Shown: one piece after another, positions 51,556 through 62,801 of the stretch | Layout: every line of letters starts with the position of its first letter | How positions within the stretch are numbered: position 1 is the stretch's first letter | From: Rhodopirellula bahusiensis | Lineage (GTDB): Bacteria > Planctomycetota > Planctomycetia > Pirellulales > Pirellulaceae | DNA: 64,000 bases | Assembly (NCBI RefSeq): GCF_002727185.1 | Contig: NZ_NIZW01000031.1 | Span: forward strand, 1 to 64,000 | Direction: 5' to 3' | Program-made: the position numbers and the translations under genes | Notes under the pieces: model-generated | The model's database searches: none | Told to the model about the DNA's origin: nothing | What the model saw: only the letters and a program-made list of their open reading frames with translations

Positions 51556-51578
51556 CGCTTTCCTGATCGGCTGAATCG

Positions 51579-52676
51579 ATGCCCCACCTTCGCCTGAATG
51601 ATTTTGAACTGGGCGCGGTTCTTGGTGTGGGCACGGTCGGCACGGTTTACGACGGGAAAATTCGTGACGACATCGAAGTCCACCCCGCCGCGGAAGCCAT
51701 CCGCGGTCAGGACTTGGCCGTCAAAAAGCTGCACCCGGCCGTCTCACAAGACGACCTGATTCAGGCCCGCTTTCGCCGCGAAATGGTGATTTTGGAGCGA
51801 TTGCAGCATCCCAACATCATTGGCTATTTCGGCGGCGGTTCCGAAGACGGTCAATTGTTCTACGTGATGGAACGTGTCGACGGCGGGACGATCAAGGATC
51901 TGCTGGAAACCAACGGAGCGTTGGCTTGGCCGGTCGTTGTCGACGTTGCTCGGCAAGTTTGCTCCGCTCTGCAATGTGCTCACAACCACGGCGTCATCCA
52001 TCGCGATCTGAAACCTGGGAACCTGTTTCTCACACGCGATGCGCACGTGAAGTTGGGCGATTTTGGCATCGCTCGCGATCAACACTCATCGGATCTGACA
52101 TCACAAGGTTTGACCGTCGGAACTCACGCCTACATGGCACCGGAGCAAATCACCGGTGATGAAACCATCAGCGGGAAAGCAGATTTGTATGCCCTGGGCT
52201 GCGTTCTGTTTGAAATGCTGGCCAATCGGAAAGTATTCGCGGGCGAGAACTTCGCACAATTGTTCGAGCAGCATTTGCGAACAAAGGCACCTGATATCGC
52301 TTCGATCGTTTCAGATGTGCCCCCGGAACTGAACCAAGTGATCGCGGAATGCTTGGAAAAGTCGCCCGACGATCGCCCATTCAACGCTCGATCGGTTCAA
52401 GGTGTGATGATCGAAATCGGCGAGAAATACGACCTCTCAGCATCCTCCACGCCGGCGACCCATGGCGACTCAGATCATTCCCAGGCTGAGAATCGTCACG
52501 CCGACGTCAGCGCTGACAGCGTGACTGAAAAAGGGCGTCGGTTGTTGGAAGAACAGATTCACTACCGTTTGGGCGGCACTTCTCGCGAAACCGTGGGCTT
52601 GGGAAAAGTCAGCGTCATCGTGATTGCGATCATCGTTCTGATCGCATTGGCTGTTTCGCTGTCGGGTGGTTCGTAG
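51579..52676 (+). CDS. membrane-anchored Ser/Thr protein kinase
   Basis: A 365-aa Hanks-type kinase. The glycine loop is LGVGTVGTVY (15-24), the ATP-binding lysine is Lys49 (DLAVKKLHP), the catalytic loop HRDLKPGN is at 141-148, and DFG is at 161-163, followed by GTHAYMAPEQI. The catalytic domain ends near residue 285 (FNARSVQGVMIEIG). A Ser/Asp/His-rich linker leads to a C-terminal membrane helix (about 343-361) with only a few residues outside, so no outside sensor domain is present. It follows rplU at 23 bases and may be co-transcribed. Its targets are unknown. Confidence 0.92.
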   Translation: MPHLRLNDFELGAVLGVGTVGTVYDGKIRDDIEVHPAAEAIRGQDLAVKKLHPAVSQDDLIQARFRREMVILERLQHPNIIGYFGGGSEDGQLFYVMERVDGGTIKDLLETNGALAWPVVVDVARQVCSALQCAHNHGVIHRDLKPGNLFLTRDAHVKLGDFGIARDQHSSDLTSQGLTVGTHAYMAPEQITGDETISGKADLYALGCVLFEMLANRKVFAGENFAQLFEQHLRTKAPDIASIVSDVPPELNQVIAECLEKSPDDRPFNARSVQGVMIEIGEKYDLSASSTPATHGDSDHSQAENRHADVSADSVTEKGRRLLEEQIHYRLGGTSRETVGLGKVSVIVIAIIVLIALAVSLSGGS

Positions 52677-56821: not shown

Positions 56822-57478
56822 TTGAACCCATCGCCATCCCAATCGACGTCTTCGGACACCACGACCGCTTTGGTGATCGCTTCCAAAGGAGGCGACAACG
56901 AAGCGTTGGGTCGATTGATGCTGCGCTATCGAGGGTACTTGCTGATGTTGGCGCATCGTTACCTCAGCGATCAACTTCGTCGACGCATCGATCCAGCTGA
57001 CTTGGTACAAGTCACGTTTTTGGAAGCCAAACGCGACCTGCATGCCTTTCGAGGCGAATCGGCAGGTGAGTTTGCAGGCTGGCTGCGGGGCATGCTGAAA
57101 AACAATGTTGCCTCCGCCGTCGCTCACCATGTGATGACGCAGAAGCGTTCAACCAAAAAAGAAGTGCACGCCGGAGGAGCCGGCGGCGATGGCAGTCAGC
57201 CGGACAATTGGATCGCACAAATGCCCGGTGCGAAGACCAGCCCGAGCGGCGTTGCAGTTCGACAAGAGGTTGTGAGCGCCATGATGCAGGCGCTGCATGA
57301 GTTGCCCGAAACTCAGGCCGAGGCCATTCGACTGCGTTACATGGAAGGCTTGTCGCTGAAAGAGATCGTCGACCGGATGGGGAAGAGTGAGACCGCGGTC
57401 GCCGGCTTGCTCAAACGTGGCTTGAAAAAGCTTCGGACGATTCTGGACACCGGCAGCAGTCCTTGGTGGAAGACCTGA
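56822..57478 (+). CDS. ECF-like sigma factor, planctomycete type
   Basis: A 218-aa sigma factor from a TTG start. Region 2 (about 30-95) reads ALGRLMLRYRGYLLMLAHRYLSDQLRRRIDPADLVQVTFLEAKRDLHAFRGESAGEFAGWLRGMLKNN. Region 4 (about 155-205) reads ALHELPETQAEAIRLRYMEGLSLKEIVDRMGKSETAVAGLLKRGLKKL. The pattern fits the planctomycete subfamily TIGR02984, by memory. A Gly/Ser-rich linker sits between. Its stop overlaps the start of the kinase gene (TGATG), so the two are translationally coupled. The kinase is the likely regulator, perhaps by phosphorylating the sigma factor or its linker. Confidence 0.92.
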   Translation: MNPSPSQSTSSDTTTALVIASKGGDNEALGRLMLRYRGYLLMLAHRYLSDQLRRRIDPADLVQVTFLEAKRDLHAFRGESAGEFAGWLRGMLKNNVASAVAHHVMTQKRSTKKEVHAGGAGGDGSQPDNWIAQMPGAKTSPSGVAVRQEVVSAMMQALHELPETQAEAIRLRYMEGLSLKEIVDRMGKSETAVAGLLKRGLKKLRTILDTGSSPWWKT

Positions 57479-59763
57479 TGGCCCAATCCAACGAAGACGA
57501 CTTGGATGAGATCTTCGCTTTGTACCTGTCCGCTTGCGACACAGGAGAACTGACTTCACGAGATGACTTTCTAAATCAGCATCCCGAACATGCTGACCAA
57601 CTTCGGGAATTGATGGACGCCGCCGATTTGATCGGCACGTTTTCAATGGCCGGATCGGCTTCGGATGAGTCGTCGCAACCTTGGACGGGACCGATCACGC
57701 TGCCGCCCAATCGCAGCGACAACGATGAAGATCCGCGTTTGGCATCGACGGCCAGCCAAATCGATGTGCAAACGGACATGGCGGACACCATTGGGATCGG
57801 CTCCGCGTTGTCGGCCGACGCGCTGGGTGAGCATTCCAACGTGGATCCCAATTTGACGCTGCCGATGGCCAATCGCTCGCAAGGCGATTCGGGACCATCG
57901 TTGCCGTATGATCTGGGTGACTATCAGCTGCTGAAGGTGTTGGGCGTCGGTGGGATGGGGGTCGTCTATCTTGCCAAGCAGCGTGATTTGGATCGCTTGG
58001 TGGCAGTGAAGATGATCCGCAGCGGCATGCTGGCTGGCCAAGACGAAGTCAAACGCTTCTACACCGAAGCCAAGGCGGCCGCAAAACTCAAACACCCCAA
58101 CATCGTCGCGGTTCACCAATTTGGGCGACGAGCCGGTCACCACTTTTTCTCGATGCAATACGTCGAAGGCGAAGACCTGCAAAAGGTGCTCGCAAAAGGC
58201 CCGTTGCCTTCCCGCCGCGCGGCCGAGATCGTTCGCGACGTGGCTCAAGCCATCCATCACGCTCACAGCCGCGGTGTCCTGCACCGCGACCTCAAGCCAG
58301 GCAACGTCCTGATCGATCCATCGGGTCAAGTTCACGTGACTGACTTCGGTCTGGCCAAACACACCGACGCTGACAGCAGCGTGACCGGCAGCGGCGCCGC
58401 GGTTGGAACGCCGCACTACATGGCACCGGAACAAGCACTCGGACACAGCGATCGAGTGACGCATCACAGCGACATTTACTCGCTCGGTGCGATCCTGTTT
58501 GCAACTATCACATCGCGACCGCCGATCGTCGGCGACACGGTGATGCAAACCTTGTTGAAAGTCGCTCATCAGCCGCCGCCAGCACTGCGATCAGTGAACC
58601 CAGAAGCGGACTCTGATCTGGAAGTCATCGTCGCGAAGTGCTTGGAGAAGCAACCCAAAGATCGCTACAAGACCGCCAAGAACTTGGCCGACGACCTGAA
58701 TCGGTTTTTGTGCGGTCAAACCATCCACGCTCGTTCGCGAAGTCGAGCTCGCAAAGTCATTGATTGGTTCGGGCAAGTTCCCGTGGTCGCGGCAGTCACG
58801 GGGCGTCAAACGTCCGGCACTCCGATTGGACAACGCCGTTTTCAAAACGGAATTCTGTCAGCAACGCTCGTGCTTCCACTGTTGTTGTTGGGCGGATTGG
58901 TGTGGCAACAACGAGCCAACAACGCGATGCCCACGCGAATCCGGATCGCGGGTGGTTTGCCCGGCGGTCTCTACAATCGCGTCTCCGAACAGTTGTCGAA
59001 AACGTTGCAGTCGCGAACGTCGGTTCCATGCGAAGTCGTTCCAACCAACGGCACGTGGGACAATCGTGAACGCTTGCTGGCGGGCAAGTTTGAGTTGGCT
59101 CCGATCCAAGCCACCGCGGTCAACGGTGAAACACTTCGAGTGGTGGCGCCTCTGTTCTACGAAGCGGTTCACGTGCTGATTCGTGACGACAGTGAGATCG
59201 ATTCGGTAGAAGACCTGTCCGGACAACGCATCGCGGTGGGTCCCCATGGAAGCGGTTCACGTCGAGCGGCTGAGATGGTGCTCGAATCGCTCGCCTTGTC
59301 TGAATCCGTGTCGCCTCGCGTCGAAATGCCATGGGACACTCTGCAAGAGACGAATCCAGAGGTTTCCACGGAAGCAGCGATCATCTGCATCGGCGTCGGC
59401 AGCGATCTGGTGACCCGAATGTTGACCGAGCATCACTGGCATCTGCTGCCGTTGCCCGATGGAGTTTCGATCGCACTGCAACATCCAACGCTTCATGCGA
59501 TGACGATCACCGCGGATGCCTATTCCGGATCAAGCATTCCTCCGGCCGGAGTTCACACGGTCGGAACCACCGCGTTTTTGGTCTGCCGAGATTCGGCTCC
59601 CGACCCACTGATCGAAAGCACCTTGCATTCGCTTTATGAAGAACCATCGATCGCCGGATTGATCCCCGCACGCCAAGCGGCCGAATGGCAAGGCCTCGCC
59701 TTCCACCGAATCTCTCGCCGCTACTACGACGACCTGGAAGCCGCCGCAGCGAACTCCCAGTGA
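57478..59763 (+). CDS. receptor Ser/Thr kinase with extracytoplasmic TAXI-type solute-binding domain
   Basis: 761 aa from the ATG at 57478. The N-terminal 145 residues are acidic. The kinase (about 149-412) has LGVGGMGVVYLA, Lys178 (VAVKMIR), HRDLKPGN (269-276), DFG (289-291) and GTPHYMAPEQ. After a basic linker, one membrane helix is at about 460-477. The rest (about 487-750) matches TAXI-family TRAP substrate-binding proteins: RIRIAGGLPGGLYNRVSEQLSKTL, NRERLLAGKFELAPIQATA, FYEAVHVLIRDDSEIDSVEDLSGQRIAVGPHGSGSRRAAEMVLE. The binding protein is thus the sensor outside the membrane. Ligand unknown; TAXI proteins often bind small organic acids. No TRAP permease is adjacent. It is coupled to the sigma gene before it. 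Confidence 0.88.
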   Translation: MAQSNEDDLDEIFALYLSACDTGELTSRDDFLNQHPEHADQLRELMDAADLIGTFSMAGSASDESSQPWTGPITLPPNRSDNDEDPRLASTASQIDVQTDMADTIGIGSALSADALGEHSNVDPNLTLPMANRSQGDSGPSLPYDLGDYQLLKVLGVGGMGVVYLAKQRDLDRLVAVKMIRSGMLAGQDEVKRFYTEAKAAAKLKHPNIVAVHQFGRRAGHHFFSMQYVEGEDLQKVLAKGPLPSRRAAEIVRDVAQAIHHAHSRGVLHRDLKPGNVLIDPSGQVHVTDFGLAKHTDADSSVTGSGAAVGTPHYMAPEQALGHSDRVTHHSDIYSLGAILFATITSRPPIVGDTVMQTLLKVAHQPPPALRSVNPEADSDLEVIVAKCLEKQPKDRYKTAKNLADDLNRFLCGQTIHARSRSRARKVIDWFGQVPVVAAVTGRQTSGTPIGQRRFQNGILSATLVLPLLLLGGLVWQQRANNAMPTRIRIAGGLPGGLYNRVSEQLSKTLQSRTSVPCEVVPTNGTWDNRERLLAGKFELAPIQATAVNGETLRVVAPLFYEAVHVLIRDDSEIDSVEDLSGQRIAVGPHGSGSRRAAEMVLESLALSESVSPRVEMPWDTLQETNPEVSTEAAIICIGVGSDLVTRMLTEHHWHLLPLPDGVSIALQHPTLHAMTITADAYSGSSIPPAGVHTVGTTAFLVCRDSAPDPLIESTLHSLYEEPSIAGLIPARQAAEWQGLAFHRISRRYYDDLEAAAANSQ

Positions 59764-59781: not shown

Positions 59782-61188
59782 TTAGCCAGTCTTTGCTTTC
59801 TTCTTCGCTCGTTTGGGTTGGCCTCGTTTCATGTGGTTGAGGGCGTCCATCTCGGTGGCTTGTCCTTTGTCACCGCAGTGTTGCATCCACTGGTCCAGTT
59901 CATTTCGCAATGATTGCATGGTTGCTTGATGAGCCGGATCGTCAGCGAGATTGTTCATCTCCAAGGGGTCCTTCGCTAGATCGTAGAACTCGATCTCAGG
60001 ACGCTGCGTGTATCGTTTGACCAGTTCGATCGCTTTCTCATCGCCCGCCTTGGCTTCGCGTCGCCAACTGACAAATTCCTTGGAGTTCGTGCAGGCATTC
60101 TCGAACGTCACTTCGGGCGTGAAGTTCCAGATGTACTTGTAGCGATCCGATCGCACGCTTCGGATGCCATAGTATTCAGAACCGTTGTTGATTCCCCTCG
60201 TCGTCATTTCGCCGAACACAAAGTCTTTGTGGGTCGGCCTGCCAGCGAACACTGGCAGCAAACTCTTGCCATCCAACTTAGCTGCGGATTCGGACGATAG
60301 ATCTCCGCCGGCCACTTCGATCCAGGTCGGCAGGAAATCGATGTATTCGATCATCGCGTTGTTGGTCGATCCTGCTGTGACATGTCCCGGCCAACGAACG
60401 ATGCACCCGGATTGCAGGCCACTGTCGTAGCACGTCCATTTCGCGAATGGCATCGAGTTGCCTTGTTCGCTGACCACGATCAGCATCGTGTTCTCGGCCA
60501 CGTTGTATTGGTCCAACAAGTCAATGGCTTGTCCGACTTGAGAATCGAAGTAGGTGATCTCGGCCAAGTAACGTGACATCCCATCGCGAGTTTCGGGCGT
60601 GTCCAGAATGTAGGGTGGCAACTCCAGAGTTTCGGGATCGTACTGAGTGGCATCGCCCTTGTTCCAAGGGGTATGCGGTTCGTTCGAACACAAGAACAAA
60701 CAGAACGGTTGTTCGGTTTCGGAGCATCCTTTTACAAACTCTTCCACCGCCTCAAAGTCAGGGTTGGATTTGCCCGGCAACTGCTCCCAACTAAACACGG
60801 ATGGCGGAGCGATGTGCCGTTTTCCACTCTGTGCAACCTGGTAACCCAGCGGTTGCAGGAACTGAACCACGCTTTCAGTTCCATCCGGAACGAAAGTGTG
60901 ATTCGGATAGGCACCTGATTTTACGGGATACTGGCCACAGTAAATGCTGTGCCGGGTCGGCGAGCACATCGCAACGGATTGAAAACAACGCGTGAACCGC
61001 ATGCCTTCTTCTGCCAGTGCATCGATCCGTGGCGTGTCAGCTTGACCGCCATAGCAGCCAAGGTCGCGAAAGGTGCAATCGTCCGCAATCACGAATACTA
61101 AATTGGGTTGTTCATTCGCGAACATTGCGTTTGGCAAAAAGGTCAACGCAATGACAGCGATGGAAACCGCGAGCAAAAATCGATTCAT
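59782..61188 (-). CDS. secreted sulfatase
   Basis: 468 aa from the ATG at 61188, the second of two overlapping genes (ATGA). A signal peptide (MNRFLLAVSIAVIALTFLPNAMFANE) is clear. The formylglycine site is Cys75 in CSPTR, and the metal site includes Asp36-Asp37 (VFVIADDCTFRDLGCYG). The C-terminal part has the usual propensity for RPEIEFYDLAKDPLEMNNLADDP. It needs a formylglycine-generating enzyme. The substrate is a sulfate ester of an unknown glycan. A Lys/Arg-rich tail (KRGQPKRAKKKAK) ends the protein. It is convergent with the kinase gene, 18 bp away. Confidence 0.94.
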   Translation of the reverse strand: MNRFLLAVSIAVIALTFLPNAMFANEQPNLVFVIADDCTFRDLGCYGGQADTPRIDALAEEGMRFTRCFQSVAMCSPTRHSIYCGQYPVKSGAYPNHTFVPDGTESVVQFLQPLGYQVAQSGKRHIAPPSVFSWEQLPGKSNPDFEAVEEFVKGCSETEQPFCLFLCSNEPHTPWNKGDATQYDPETLELPPYILDTPETRDGMSRYLAEITYFDSQVGQAIDLLDQYNVAENTMLIVVSEQGNSMPFAKWTCYDSGLQSGCIVRWPGHVTAGSTNNAMIEYIDFLPTWIEVAGGDLSSESAAKLDGKSLLPVFAGRPTHKDFVFGEMTTRGINNGSEYYGIRSVRSDRYKYIWNFTPEVTFENACTNSKEFVSWRREAKAGDEKAIELVKRYTQRPEIEFYDLAKDPLEMNNLADDPAHQATMQSLRNELDQWMQHCGDKGQATEMDALNHMKRGQPKRAKKKAKTG

Positions 61189-62639
61189 GAGTTTGCCTTC
61201 GTTCGCCAAACGGGACGGGCATTGGATGTGATTTCTTCGTTCAGCTCTTCCATTCGAGCACGCATTTTCTCCGCTCGTTCAGGATCCTGTTTGACAAGGT
61301 TGTTTTGCTCACCAATGTCTTCCGACAGATGGAAGAGAAAGACCTGCGGTTCTGGAGCCGGTCCCTTCGCATTCTTTCCGCGACGAGGAACCTTTCGAAG
61401 ATACTTCCAATCACCCATGCGAATCCCTTCCAGTGCACCATGAGCCGAATAGAAAACGAATTCTTCTCGCGATGATTCATCAGACGTGAAGGTGGAAGTC
61501 AGATCCACCCCGTCGATCTTTCGATCGTTCTCCAGCGGCACGCCGGTCACCGAAGCGATGGTCGGAAGCAGGTCCATGTTGGTTGCGAAGGCATTGCTCG
61601 ATGTCCCGGCAGGAATGCGTCCCGGTGCCCACATGATGCAAGGCACCCGCTGGCCTCCTTCAAACGTGGTTCCTTTGCCCGCTCGCAGGGGACCCGCACT
61701 GCCGCCATGGTTTTTGAATTGCAACCACGGTCCGTTGTCGCTGGTGTAAACAATCAGCGTCTTTTCCGACAGACCAAGGTCACGAACGGTCTGAATCAGA
61801 CGACCGACTTCGGTGTCGATGTGTTCGATCACGCACTTGTATGCATTCTGTGGATCGGGATCGTAAACATCCTCGGGCACATACAAAGGAATGTGTGGCA
61901 TTGAGTGAGGCAAATACAAGAAAAACGGTTTGTCTTGATTTGCTTCGACAAACTCAATGGCTCGATCCGTGTACCGACGCGTGATGGTTCTTTGATCGAC
62001 GGGCACTTCGATGATCTCTTCGTCTTGCACCAGCGGTGTATTCCAAAAAGTGACCGCGGAGGATTGGTCCTTCCACCGTTCATCGGACGGCAATTTGCCA
62101 ATTCGTTTGTTGTCGGGGTGATTCATATCGTTGGAATAAGGAATCCCGTAGTAAGAATCAAAACCGTTCGACGTCGGCAACGTCTCCTTGTGGTGACCCA
62201 GATGCCATTTGCCGACGCAAGCGGTGGCGTAGCCCGCGGTCTTCAAATGGTCTGCGATGGTGACCTCTTCCGGATGCAGCCCGTAGTTGCTTTGAGGGAA
62301 CAGGACATGCTTGTGCAATCCGACTCGTTTGGGATAGCAACCCGTCAGCAACGCCGCTCGCGAAGGCGAACACACCGAGCACGCTGAGTAGAAACTGGTG
62401 TAGCGACGTCCTTCACTGGCCAAGCGATCGATGTTCGGCGTCTTGATGTTGGGCGAACCAAAGCAACCCAAATCGTTGTAGCCCTGATCGTCGGTGAAGA
62501 TCACGATGACGTTGGGTTTCTCGGATGTTTCGGTCGACTCTGCAGCAAAGCTGGGGCGACCGAGCAGTGCGAGAAACCCCGCGAGGCCGAGCACAATGGA
62601 TTGGCAGCGAGGAATCGGGAAAGCGCTTCTGGATGACAT
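61185..62639 (-). CDS. secreted sulfatase
   Basis: 484 aa from the ATG at 62639, with signal peptide MSSRSAFPIPRCQSIVLGLAGFLALLGRPSFAAE. The active site is Cys90 in CSPSR (SACSVCSPSRAALLTGCYPKRVGLHKHV). The N-terminal metal residues are in VIVIFTDDQGYNDLGCFG, and YTSDNGPWLQFKNHGGSAGPLRAGKGTTFEGGQRVPCIMWAPG carries later active-site residues. Its stop overlaps the start of the next sulfatase, so the two are made from one message. They probably act on related sulfated polysaccharides. Confidence 0.95.
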   Translation of the reverse strand: MSSRSAFPIPRCQSIVLGLAGFLALLGRPSFAAESTETSEKPNVIVIFTDDQGYNDLGCFGSPNIKTPNIDRLASEGRRYTSFYSACSVCSPSRAALLTGCYPKRVGLHKHVLFPQSNYGLHPEEVTIADHLKTAGYATACVGKWHLGHHKETLPTSNGFDSYYGIPYSNDMNHPDNKRIGKLPSDERWKDQSSAVTFWNTPLVQDEEIIEVPVDQRTITRRYTDRAIEFVEANQDKPFFLYLPHSMPHIPLYVPEDVYDPDPQNAYKCVIEHIDTEVGRLIQTVRDLGLSEKTLIVYTSDNGPWLQFKNHGGSAGPLRAGKGTTFEGGQRVPCIMWAPGRIPAGTSSNAFATNMDLLPTIASVTGVPLENDRKIDGVDLTSTFTSDESSREEFVFYSAHGALEGIRMGDWKYLRKVPRRGKNAKGPAPEPQVFLFHLSEDIGEQNNLVKQDPERAEKMRARMEELNEEITSNARPVWRTKANS

Positions 62640-62801
62640 GAACTCGCCTTGCAAAGGAGGGGGGACGGTTCCTGCCAGGCGAAGGAACCGGTGGGCTGCG
62701 GTCCATCATAGCCACTGCTGCCAGACGAAGCAGCAAAGGATGGTGCCTTCAGACCACACATCCACGACGGCCCCCTCCGGGGCGTCGATTCAATGAGTGA
62801 G

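Follow-up and report, generated by a model that had tools for sequence, protein, structure and literature searches.

The first 64,000 nucleotides of contig NZ_NIZW01000031.1 of Rhodopirellula bahusiensis (the window) carry an extracytoplasmic function (ECF)-type sigma factor gene followed by the gene for a receptor Ser/Thr kinase that ends in a TAXI solute-binding domain. We propose that the two genes form a unit in which the ligand-bound receptor kinase alters its partner sigma factor, most likely by phosphorylation, and put the probability of this reading at roughly two in three. The pair has the arrangement of known ECF sigma–kinase pairs, and its new part is the sensor, probably an amino acid-type receptor. 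To judge from its sequence, the protein looks like a receptor that switches genes in response to a small nutrient, for which glutamate or another amino acid may be a candidate.

A sequence-only reading of the window had described a planctomycete-type sigma gene sharing a TGATG with the gene for an intact kinase that has one membrane helix and a C-terminal TAXI-type domain. Each part of this anatomy was recovered. The sigma factor belongs to the Planctomycetaceae-specific sigma-70 subfamily 1 (NCBIfam TIGR02984; 237.4 bits, cut-off 183.75), and the region around its TTG start is conserved in the five closest congeners. The junction sequence, ...GACCTGATGGCC..., contains the sigma stop and the kinase start. 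Its TGATG is common to the window and these five congeners, and the overlap suggests translational coupling of the two genes. A four-base overlap (ATGA or GTGA, once TTGA) takes its place in six of the other seven congeners and in some loci further away in relationship; the remaining adjacent loci have a gap of 6 to 320 bases between the sigma gene and the nearest kinase start codon. An alignment of 14 upstream regions revealed no conserved promoter or operator 5' of the sigma gene, clear conservation being limited to the vicinity of the start codon in the six closest sequences.

The kinase is of the Hanks type, and its catalytic residues (K178, H269-R270-D271, and D289-F290-G291) are invariant in all 21 aligned sequences. 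A single hydrophobic segment occurs at residues 458–476. A model of the whole protein (predicted local distance difference test, pLDDT, 77; predicted template modeling score, pTM, 0.45) has a helical N-terminal module at residues 4–58, a linker with pLDDT below 50 at residues 54–126, and a long membrane helix at residues 450–481. Residues 421–456 (58738–58845), located between the kinase domain and this helix, had no match in a Pfam scan of the kinase protein; W430, P435, and G442 within them are invariant in the 21 sequences. This conserved stretch may relay the signal.

In the mechanism we propose, the helix would anchor the kinase, with the kinase domain inside and the TAXI Venus flytrap outside, a topology suggested by the single helix and the need of the kinase for ATP. 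The flytrap would be closed by a small carboxylate or amino acid, most likely of the glutamate type. Closure would be relayed through the helix to change the dimerization and activity of the kinase, as in the usual picture of receptor kinases. The N-terminal module would recruit the sigma factor to the kinase, which would then alter sigma activity, most likely by phosphorylation at Thr65 or at Ser140 or Ser142 of the linker. We infer, rather than observe, the direction of this effect and the regulon that it would reach.

The TAXI sensor and its fusion to the kinase

Judged by family profiles and predicted fold, the sensor part is a real TAXI domain. It matches Pfam NMT1_3 at residues 490–722 (E 5e-21; score 76, cut-off 27) and NCBIfam TIGR02122 (TRAP_TAXI; 98.7 bits, cut-off 84.35), and both profiles match all 21 aligned members (E 0.001/0.01). 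Residues 482–761 modeled alone gave a pLDDT of 91.2 and a pTM of 0.88. When Foldseek compared this model with the PDB, TAXI chains took the first seven places (E 6.4e-21 to 3.9e-17; TM-score 0.78–0.85 by query length), and the next, MatC, follows at 4.1e-10. Glutamate-bound VcGluP (9ibo, E 6.4e-21) ranks first, ahead of the Thermus glutamate protein 1us4; another TAXI entry, 9oz4, was found by sequence and is absent among the best 50 fold matches listed. The sequence-only reading had offered to give way if a profile search returned no TAXI or periplasmic-binding match, and both the profile and the fold searches returned TAXI matches.

VcGluP and TtGluBP have the TAXI fold and key pocket residues in common with the window domain. 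Tyr45 and Gln93 dominate the affinity of VcGluP for glutamate, which falls 213-fold in Y45A and 990-fold in Q93A (PMC11574862). The Tyr45 equivalent is tyrosine in 81 of 82 fusion proteins (the window's and 81 relatives), and the Gln93 equivalent is glutamine in 82 of 82. As these equivalents are present in 78% and 54%, respectively, of the published TAXI alignment (PMC11574862), their near-invariance is a feature of the fusion group. The Ser75 equivalent is serine or threonine in 79 of the fusion proteins, the Glu125 equivalent is glutamate in 76 and aspartate in 6, and the Gly156 equivalent is glycine in 81; the position equivalent to Ser40 is variable. VcGluP numbering was counted by hand and agrees with the S40, V44, Y45, Y46, S75, Q93, H123, and E125 of the published work.

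Recruited binding-protein folds can lose their pocket, and the TAXI part might no longer bind a ligand but serve as a dimerization or protein-contact domain. Strong divergence outside the pocket would fit such a role: among the 21 aligned sequences, the five that differ most have domains with 25–34% identity to that of the window. However, conservation across the 82 sequences reaches 95% or more at just 15 of 280 positions, and they include the equivalents of both main glutamate-affinity residues and of Gly156. We consider a loss of binding quite improbable.

A role as a subunit of a tripartite ATP-independent periplasmic (TRAP) transporter was rejected. Whereas VcGluP works for a TRAP transporter as a separate protein in the periplasm (PMC11574862), the window domain is fused to a kinase, and no TRAP DctM in the genome scores above the cut-off (best 21.2 bits against 23.8, which 7 of 14 control genomes exceed). 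A TAXI–GltS pairing, as described for Bordetella (PMC12344293), was also rejected. The one GltS-like protein of the genome (38 bits, cut-off 26) is encoded on contig C9 and is thus linked to neither of the two TAXI genes, which C10 and C31 carry. The TAXI gene on C10, the only other one in the genome (G000:C10:173146–173994, minus strand), lies in a 434-amino acid frame with TAXI at residues 29–320 and a C-terminal extension. GltS may be used together with this stand-alone protein.

The kinase–TAXI fusion is old. A search of 60 genomes with the whole protein gave a full-length match, according to match coverage, in 21, the window's own included. TAXI matches in frames of 680 amino acids or longer occur in at least 107 of the 241 genomes of the window's family (a de-duplicated hand count). 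From the 86 of these that were not already included we took 59, together with genome G511 (frame of 630 amino acids; G, C, and L numbers are our handles for genomes, contigs, and loci). These 60, the 20 relatives from the whole-protein search, and G331 constitute the 81 relatives, chosen for full-length or long-frame matches. Kinase and TAXI occur in one frame in all 81 (80 from the window's family and one from another family of the order). The ratio of nonsynonymous to synonymous substitution rates (dN/dS) against four congeners is 0.050–0.066 for TAXI, 0.011–0.034 for the kinase, 0.010–0.057 for the N-terminal module, and 0.129–0.272 for the linker, values that are rough at a partly saturated dS of 0.9–1.9. 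The single frame in these selected relatives and the low TAXI dN/dS, which points to purifying selection, argue that the fusion is more than chance. Together with the conserved pocket and the result for DctM, they lend good support to the proposal that a binding protein was recruited as the sensor half of the kinase.

An even sample of 392 genomes from the phylum gave TAXI matches in 77, and among 20 long-frame loci only that of G331, from the window's family, is a fusion; this sampling set aside frames of 589–611 amino acids in G177, G248, G255, and G143:C2, as well as the second TAXI matches that G016, G526, and G497 have in frames of 661–697 amino acids. A scan of genome contigs yielded 43 named loci, of which 34 are fusions, all with planctomycete titles. 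The other nine include Verrucomicrobiales/Akkermansiaceae loci and L227, which is cut by a contig end. Stand-alone TAXI frames of ~430–510 amino acids occur in Planctomycetota and Verrucomicrobiota, and those read have a helix-TAXI-helix-coil layout. They are near sequence relatives of the window domain but have no kinase domain, and may be membrane-bound TAXI sensors of another kind, one that does without a kinase. In a quick TAXI tree (101 rows), several inner branches of which are weak, ten stand-alone proteins fall inside the fusion clade and two changes are needed. The tree does not establish a single origin; the fusion may have arisen once, the kinase then being lost once, or it may have arisen twice.

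Sigma factor and kinase across genomes

The sigma gene lies directly upstream of the fusion on the same strand in 60 of the 81 relatives' loci, or 61 of 82 with the window. In 20 of the 21 genomes without this adjacency, an orthologue scoring at least 247 bits is encoded elsewhere, and the next-best sigma factor of the genome scores at most 179. No kinase was found near the unlinked sigma gene in the examined flank of 15 of 15 loci, some of these flanks being short at contig ends. By contrast, only 3 of 52 genomes without a listed fusion (G462, G459, and G493) have a sigma factor of at least 230 bits, the other 49 falling below. Addition of G514 (sigma 253.6 bits, fusion not found) brings this to 4 of 53, with 49 of 53 still below 230 bits. 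The fusions of G459, G462, and G514 may be missing from the data because these assemblies consist of 530–820 contigs. The co-retention of the pair when unlinked and the rarity of the sigma factor without the fusion indicate that the two behave as one unit that does not need adjacency. The linked or unlinked state changed at least four times on the TAXI tree.

These counts depend on how the sets were drawn. The 52 comparison genomes were hand-picked as having no listed long-frame TAXI match taken as a fusion; for a few (e.g., G489, G509, and G642) the listing gave no frame for the TAXI match, so not every one is proved fusion-less. Orthology was assigned by bit score, a scale on which two linked sigma factors, from L168 (181.7, cut by Ns) and from L191 (190.4), do not stand clear of the top-scoring paralogue (190, in G491). 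The phyletic comparison took 81 of 82 against 3 of 52, with Fisher values that ignore relatedness. G514 and G506 joined after the sets of 52 and 82 were drawn; with G506 added, the sigma factor is present in 81 of 83 fusion genomes. Apart from G514, G506, and five sigma-less genomes, all other 14 genomes of this later batch have a sigma factor of at least 243 bits.

The exception among the 21 unlinked genomes is G505, with a best sigma score of 99.8 bits. Its sister G506, of the same genus, also has the fusion and reaches 159.9 bits. The N-terminal module was not found in the fusions of these two sigma-less genomes, and it was found in all other fusions, as a divergent copy in L191 and in another frame in L043. 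In G511 (L263, C1:4194500–4203500), the module is located ~1.5 kb from the kinase–TAXI part, with a transposase-like gene between them. In Rhodopirellula sallentina SM41 (L043/L208), the module and the kinase–TAXI part are in different frames, owing to a genuine frameshift or to a mistake in the assembly. Some kinases also carry the module but have no sigma match in the examined flank, one of them in the window's own genome (C11:110389) and the others at L024 and L025.

The main rival to sigma phosphorylation is that the kinase acts as a ligand-controlled anti-sigma factor. The N-terminal module would hold the sigma factor at the membrane until ligand or autophosphorylation frees it, and phosphorylation of the sigma factor would be unneeded. 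By dN/dS, the module and the kinase are conserved to much the same degree, and the two fusions that lack the module are also those without the sigma factor, both as this model would have it. However, G505 and G506 belong to one genus and so represent one event, the G506 assembly is 87% complete in 530 contigs, and the module is present in kinases with no flanking sigma match. The invariance of the catalytic residues in 21 of 21 sequences further indicates that catalysis matters too. In favor of the model, the retention of the acids of sigma region 2.2, described below, would let the sigma factor be active unmodified. Taken together, we regard the anti-sigma model as possible, though on the unlikely side.

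Alternatively, the kinase may act on other proteins, with the sigma factor a mere operon mate or a regulator of the kinase gene. The non-adjacent sigma gene in 21 of 82 loci and the survival of the fusion without it in G505 and G506 would be expected in this case, but its retention in 20 of 21 genomes without adjacency and its low scores in 49 of 53 genomes without the fusion would not. We think this explanation unlikely.

Away from the five closest congeners, the two genes are also the only ones found to recur widely. The comparison, made from the window, covered 12–19 kb of context in 15 such loci; the other frame matches there were shadow frames on the antisense strand, a sulfatase distantly matched in two of the loci, and matches to an upstream kinase gene of the window (51567–52676). 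The last of these (30–36% identity) most likely reflect, on sequence grounds, the kinase domain of the fusion itself. No further conserved operon member was found beyond the five closest congeners.

Region 2.2 and candidate phosphorylation sites

Phosphorylation sites were sought among 76 sigma orthologues (61 linked, window included, and 15 unlinked), of which 75 are readable and one is cut by Ns. Position 64, next to Thr65 in region 2.2, is acidic in 0 of 75 orthologues as against 16 of 23 paralogues from three genomes, and Thr65 is present in 73 of 75 orthologues against 10 of 23 paralogues. Position 64 may correspond to E407 of sigma70, at the contact to polymerase. All 7 paralogues without an acid at 64 have serine or threonine at 65, compared with 4 of 16 that have the acid (Fisher p = 0.0013, relatedness ignored). 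The paralogues come from 23 of 30 loci, after 3 orthologues and the weak or partial L289, L291, L294, and L297 were dropped. In the linker, Ser140 and Ser142 are serine or threonine in 76 of 76 orthologues but are common in paralogues too. These patterns make Thr65 the first candidate phosphosite, with Ser140 and Ser142 also candidates.

A precedent is EcfP, which lacks the charges of the DAED motif and is phosphorylated by its kinase on a threonine in the DAED position, the phosphate adding a charge (PMC8999054). The window sigma factor differs in keeping DxxD while lacking the acid four residues further on. Because both DxxD acids, Asp57 and Asp60, are kept, the EcfP mechanism does not transfer as it stands, and a charge swap within the DAED motif was rejected as stated. 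A narrower version of our proposal is that the TAXI domain senses a glutamate-like amino acid outside the cell and that the kinase phosphorylates Thr65, supplying the charge lacking at position 64. We hold this version to be doubtful.

Several findings tell against control of the sigma factor by the kinase, or against phosphorylation as its means. Of the 82 loci, 21 have no sigma gene adjoining the fusion, the fusion persists in G505 and G506 although they lack the sigma gene, and the co-occurrence counts are phylogenetically non-independent. All 75 readable orthologues have Asp or Glu at 57 and Asp at 60. Among the 16 paralogues with an acid at 64, 4 have Thr65 as well. A kinase match is present in the locus of 2 of 7 acid-less paralogues compared with 12 of 16 with the acid, so that loss of the acid has no simple link to kinase control, which lowers confidence in the Thr65 idea. 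The claim of the sequence-only reading that the kinase controls its own sigma factor has indirect support from adjacency (61 of 82), co-retention (20 of 21), and rarity of the sigma factor without the fusion. That reading had also named, as grounds to abandon it, orthologues with kinase and C-terminal part separate and unlinked to the sigma gene; the sigma gene is unlinked in 21 of 82 loci, and kinase and TAXI are separate in 0 of 82.

Features of the sigma–kinase pair in the window (positions in the 64,000-nucleotide stretch)
Feature	Position	Strand	Basis
ECF-type sigma factor gene, TIGR02984 subfamily	56822–57478	+	NCBIfam profile; start TTG 56822; 657 bases, 218 amino acids
Sigma region 2.2, residues 57–65 (DPADLVQVT)	56990–57016	+	Asp57 and Asp60 kept; 64 neutral; Thr65 conserved
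TGATG junction	57476–57480	+	Sigma stop TGA 57476–57478 overlaps kinase start ATG 57478
Ser/Thr receptor kinase with C-terminal TAXI domain	57478–59763	+	Profiles, alignment; 2286 bases, 761 amino acids
N-terminal helical module, residues 4–58, proposed sigma-docking part	57487–57651	+	Predicted model; comparison of fusions
Hanks-type protein kinase domain, residues 149–402	57922–58683	+	Pkinase E 2.7e-52; catalytic residues intact
Single transmembrane segment, residues 458–476	58849–58905	+	Hydrophobicity; within predicted helix 450–481
TAXI solute-binding domain, residues 482–761	58921–59760	+	Pfam NMT1_3 490–722; NCBIfam; predicted fold
Tyr499, equivalent of VcGluP Tyr45	58972–58974	+	Profile alignment
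Gln544, equivalent of VcGluP Gln93	59107–59109	+	Profile alignment

Two further observations concern the neighborhood of the pair. The upstream kinase gene (51579–52676) encodes a second Ser/Thr kinase of 365 amino acids with a C-terminal hydrophobic segment, ~4 kb upstream of the sigma gene; only the five closest congeners have a close relative (83–91% identity) in the vicinity of the pair. Two sulfatase-like genes, judged by eye, occupy 59782–62654 on the minus strand and are convergent with the pair.

Relation to known systems and meaning

EcfP/PknT and EcfK/PknS (ECF43, activated by Ser/Thr kinases) likewise pair a sigma factor with a Ser/Thr kinase. EcfK, beside which PknS is encoded, is phosphorylated on T51 and on four linker residues (PMC13147305). 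As in the window kinase, PknS has its kinase domain inside and its sensor outside, but its periplasmic part is rich in TPR (PMC13147305), whereas that of the window kinase is a solute-binding domain. Planctomycete sigma factors of groups ECF59, ECF61, ECF62, and ECF217 are predicted to be regulated by phosphorylation, with two examples from Rhodopirellula in the table of PMC8999054. Compared by table row only, they resemble the window sigma factor in being planctomycete ECF sigma factors.

The GlnH-GlnX-PknG system of mycobacteria resembles the window kinase in linking an amino acid-binding periplasmic protein to a Ser/Thr kinase. It differs in consisting of three separate proteins, with GarA as the target and no sigma factor, whereas the window has one fused protein (PMC6069109). 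A survey of planctomycete kinases names TPR, WD40, sulfatase-modifying, and DUF1080 as periplasmic domains; the term TAXI is absent from its main text (PMC11032199). We found no description of a TAXI–kinase fusion among the best-ranked titles and abstracts of a mainly open-access literature, and our literature search found no paper with a named input for a planctomycete sigma–kinase pair.

What stimulates bacterial Ser/Thr kinases has been called an outstanding question (PMC6069109). Because the sensor family has glutamate-bound structures and mutated pocket residues, the ligand could be sought by screening for binding, which is simple, and with a pair of point mutants. Species with the pair adjacent, with the pair unlinked, or without both the sigma factor and the N-terminal module provide a natural test set. 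If the Thr65 reading holds, the pair would constitute direct nutrient-to-sigma signaling without a transporter, an anti-sigma factor, or a response regulator.

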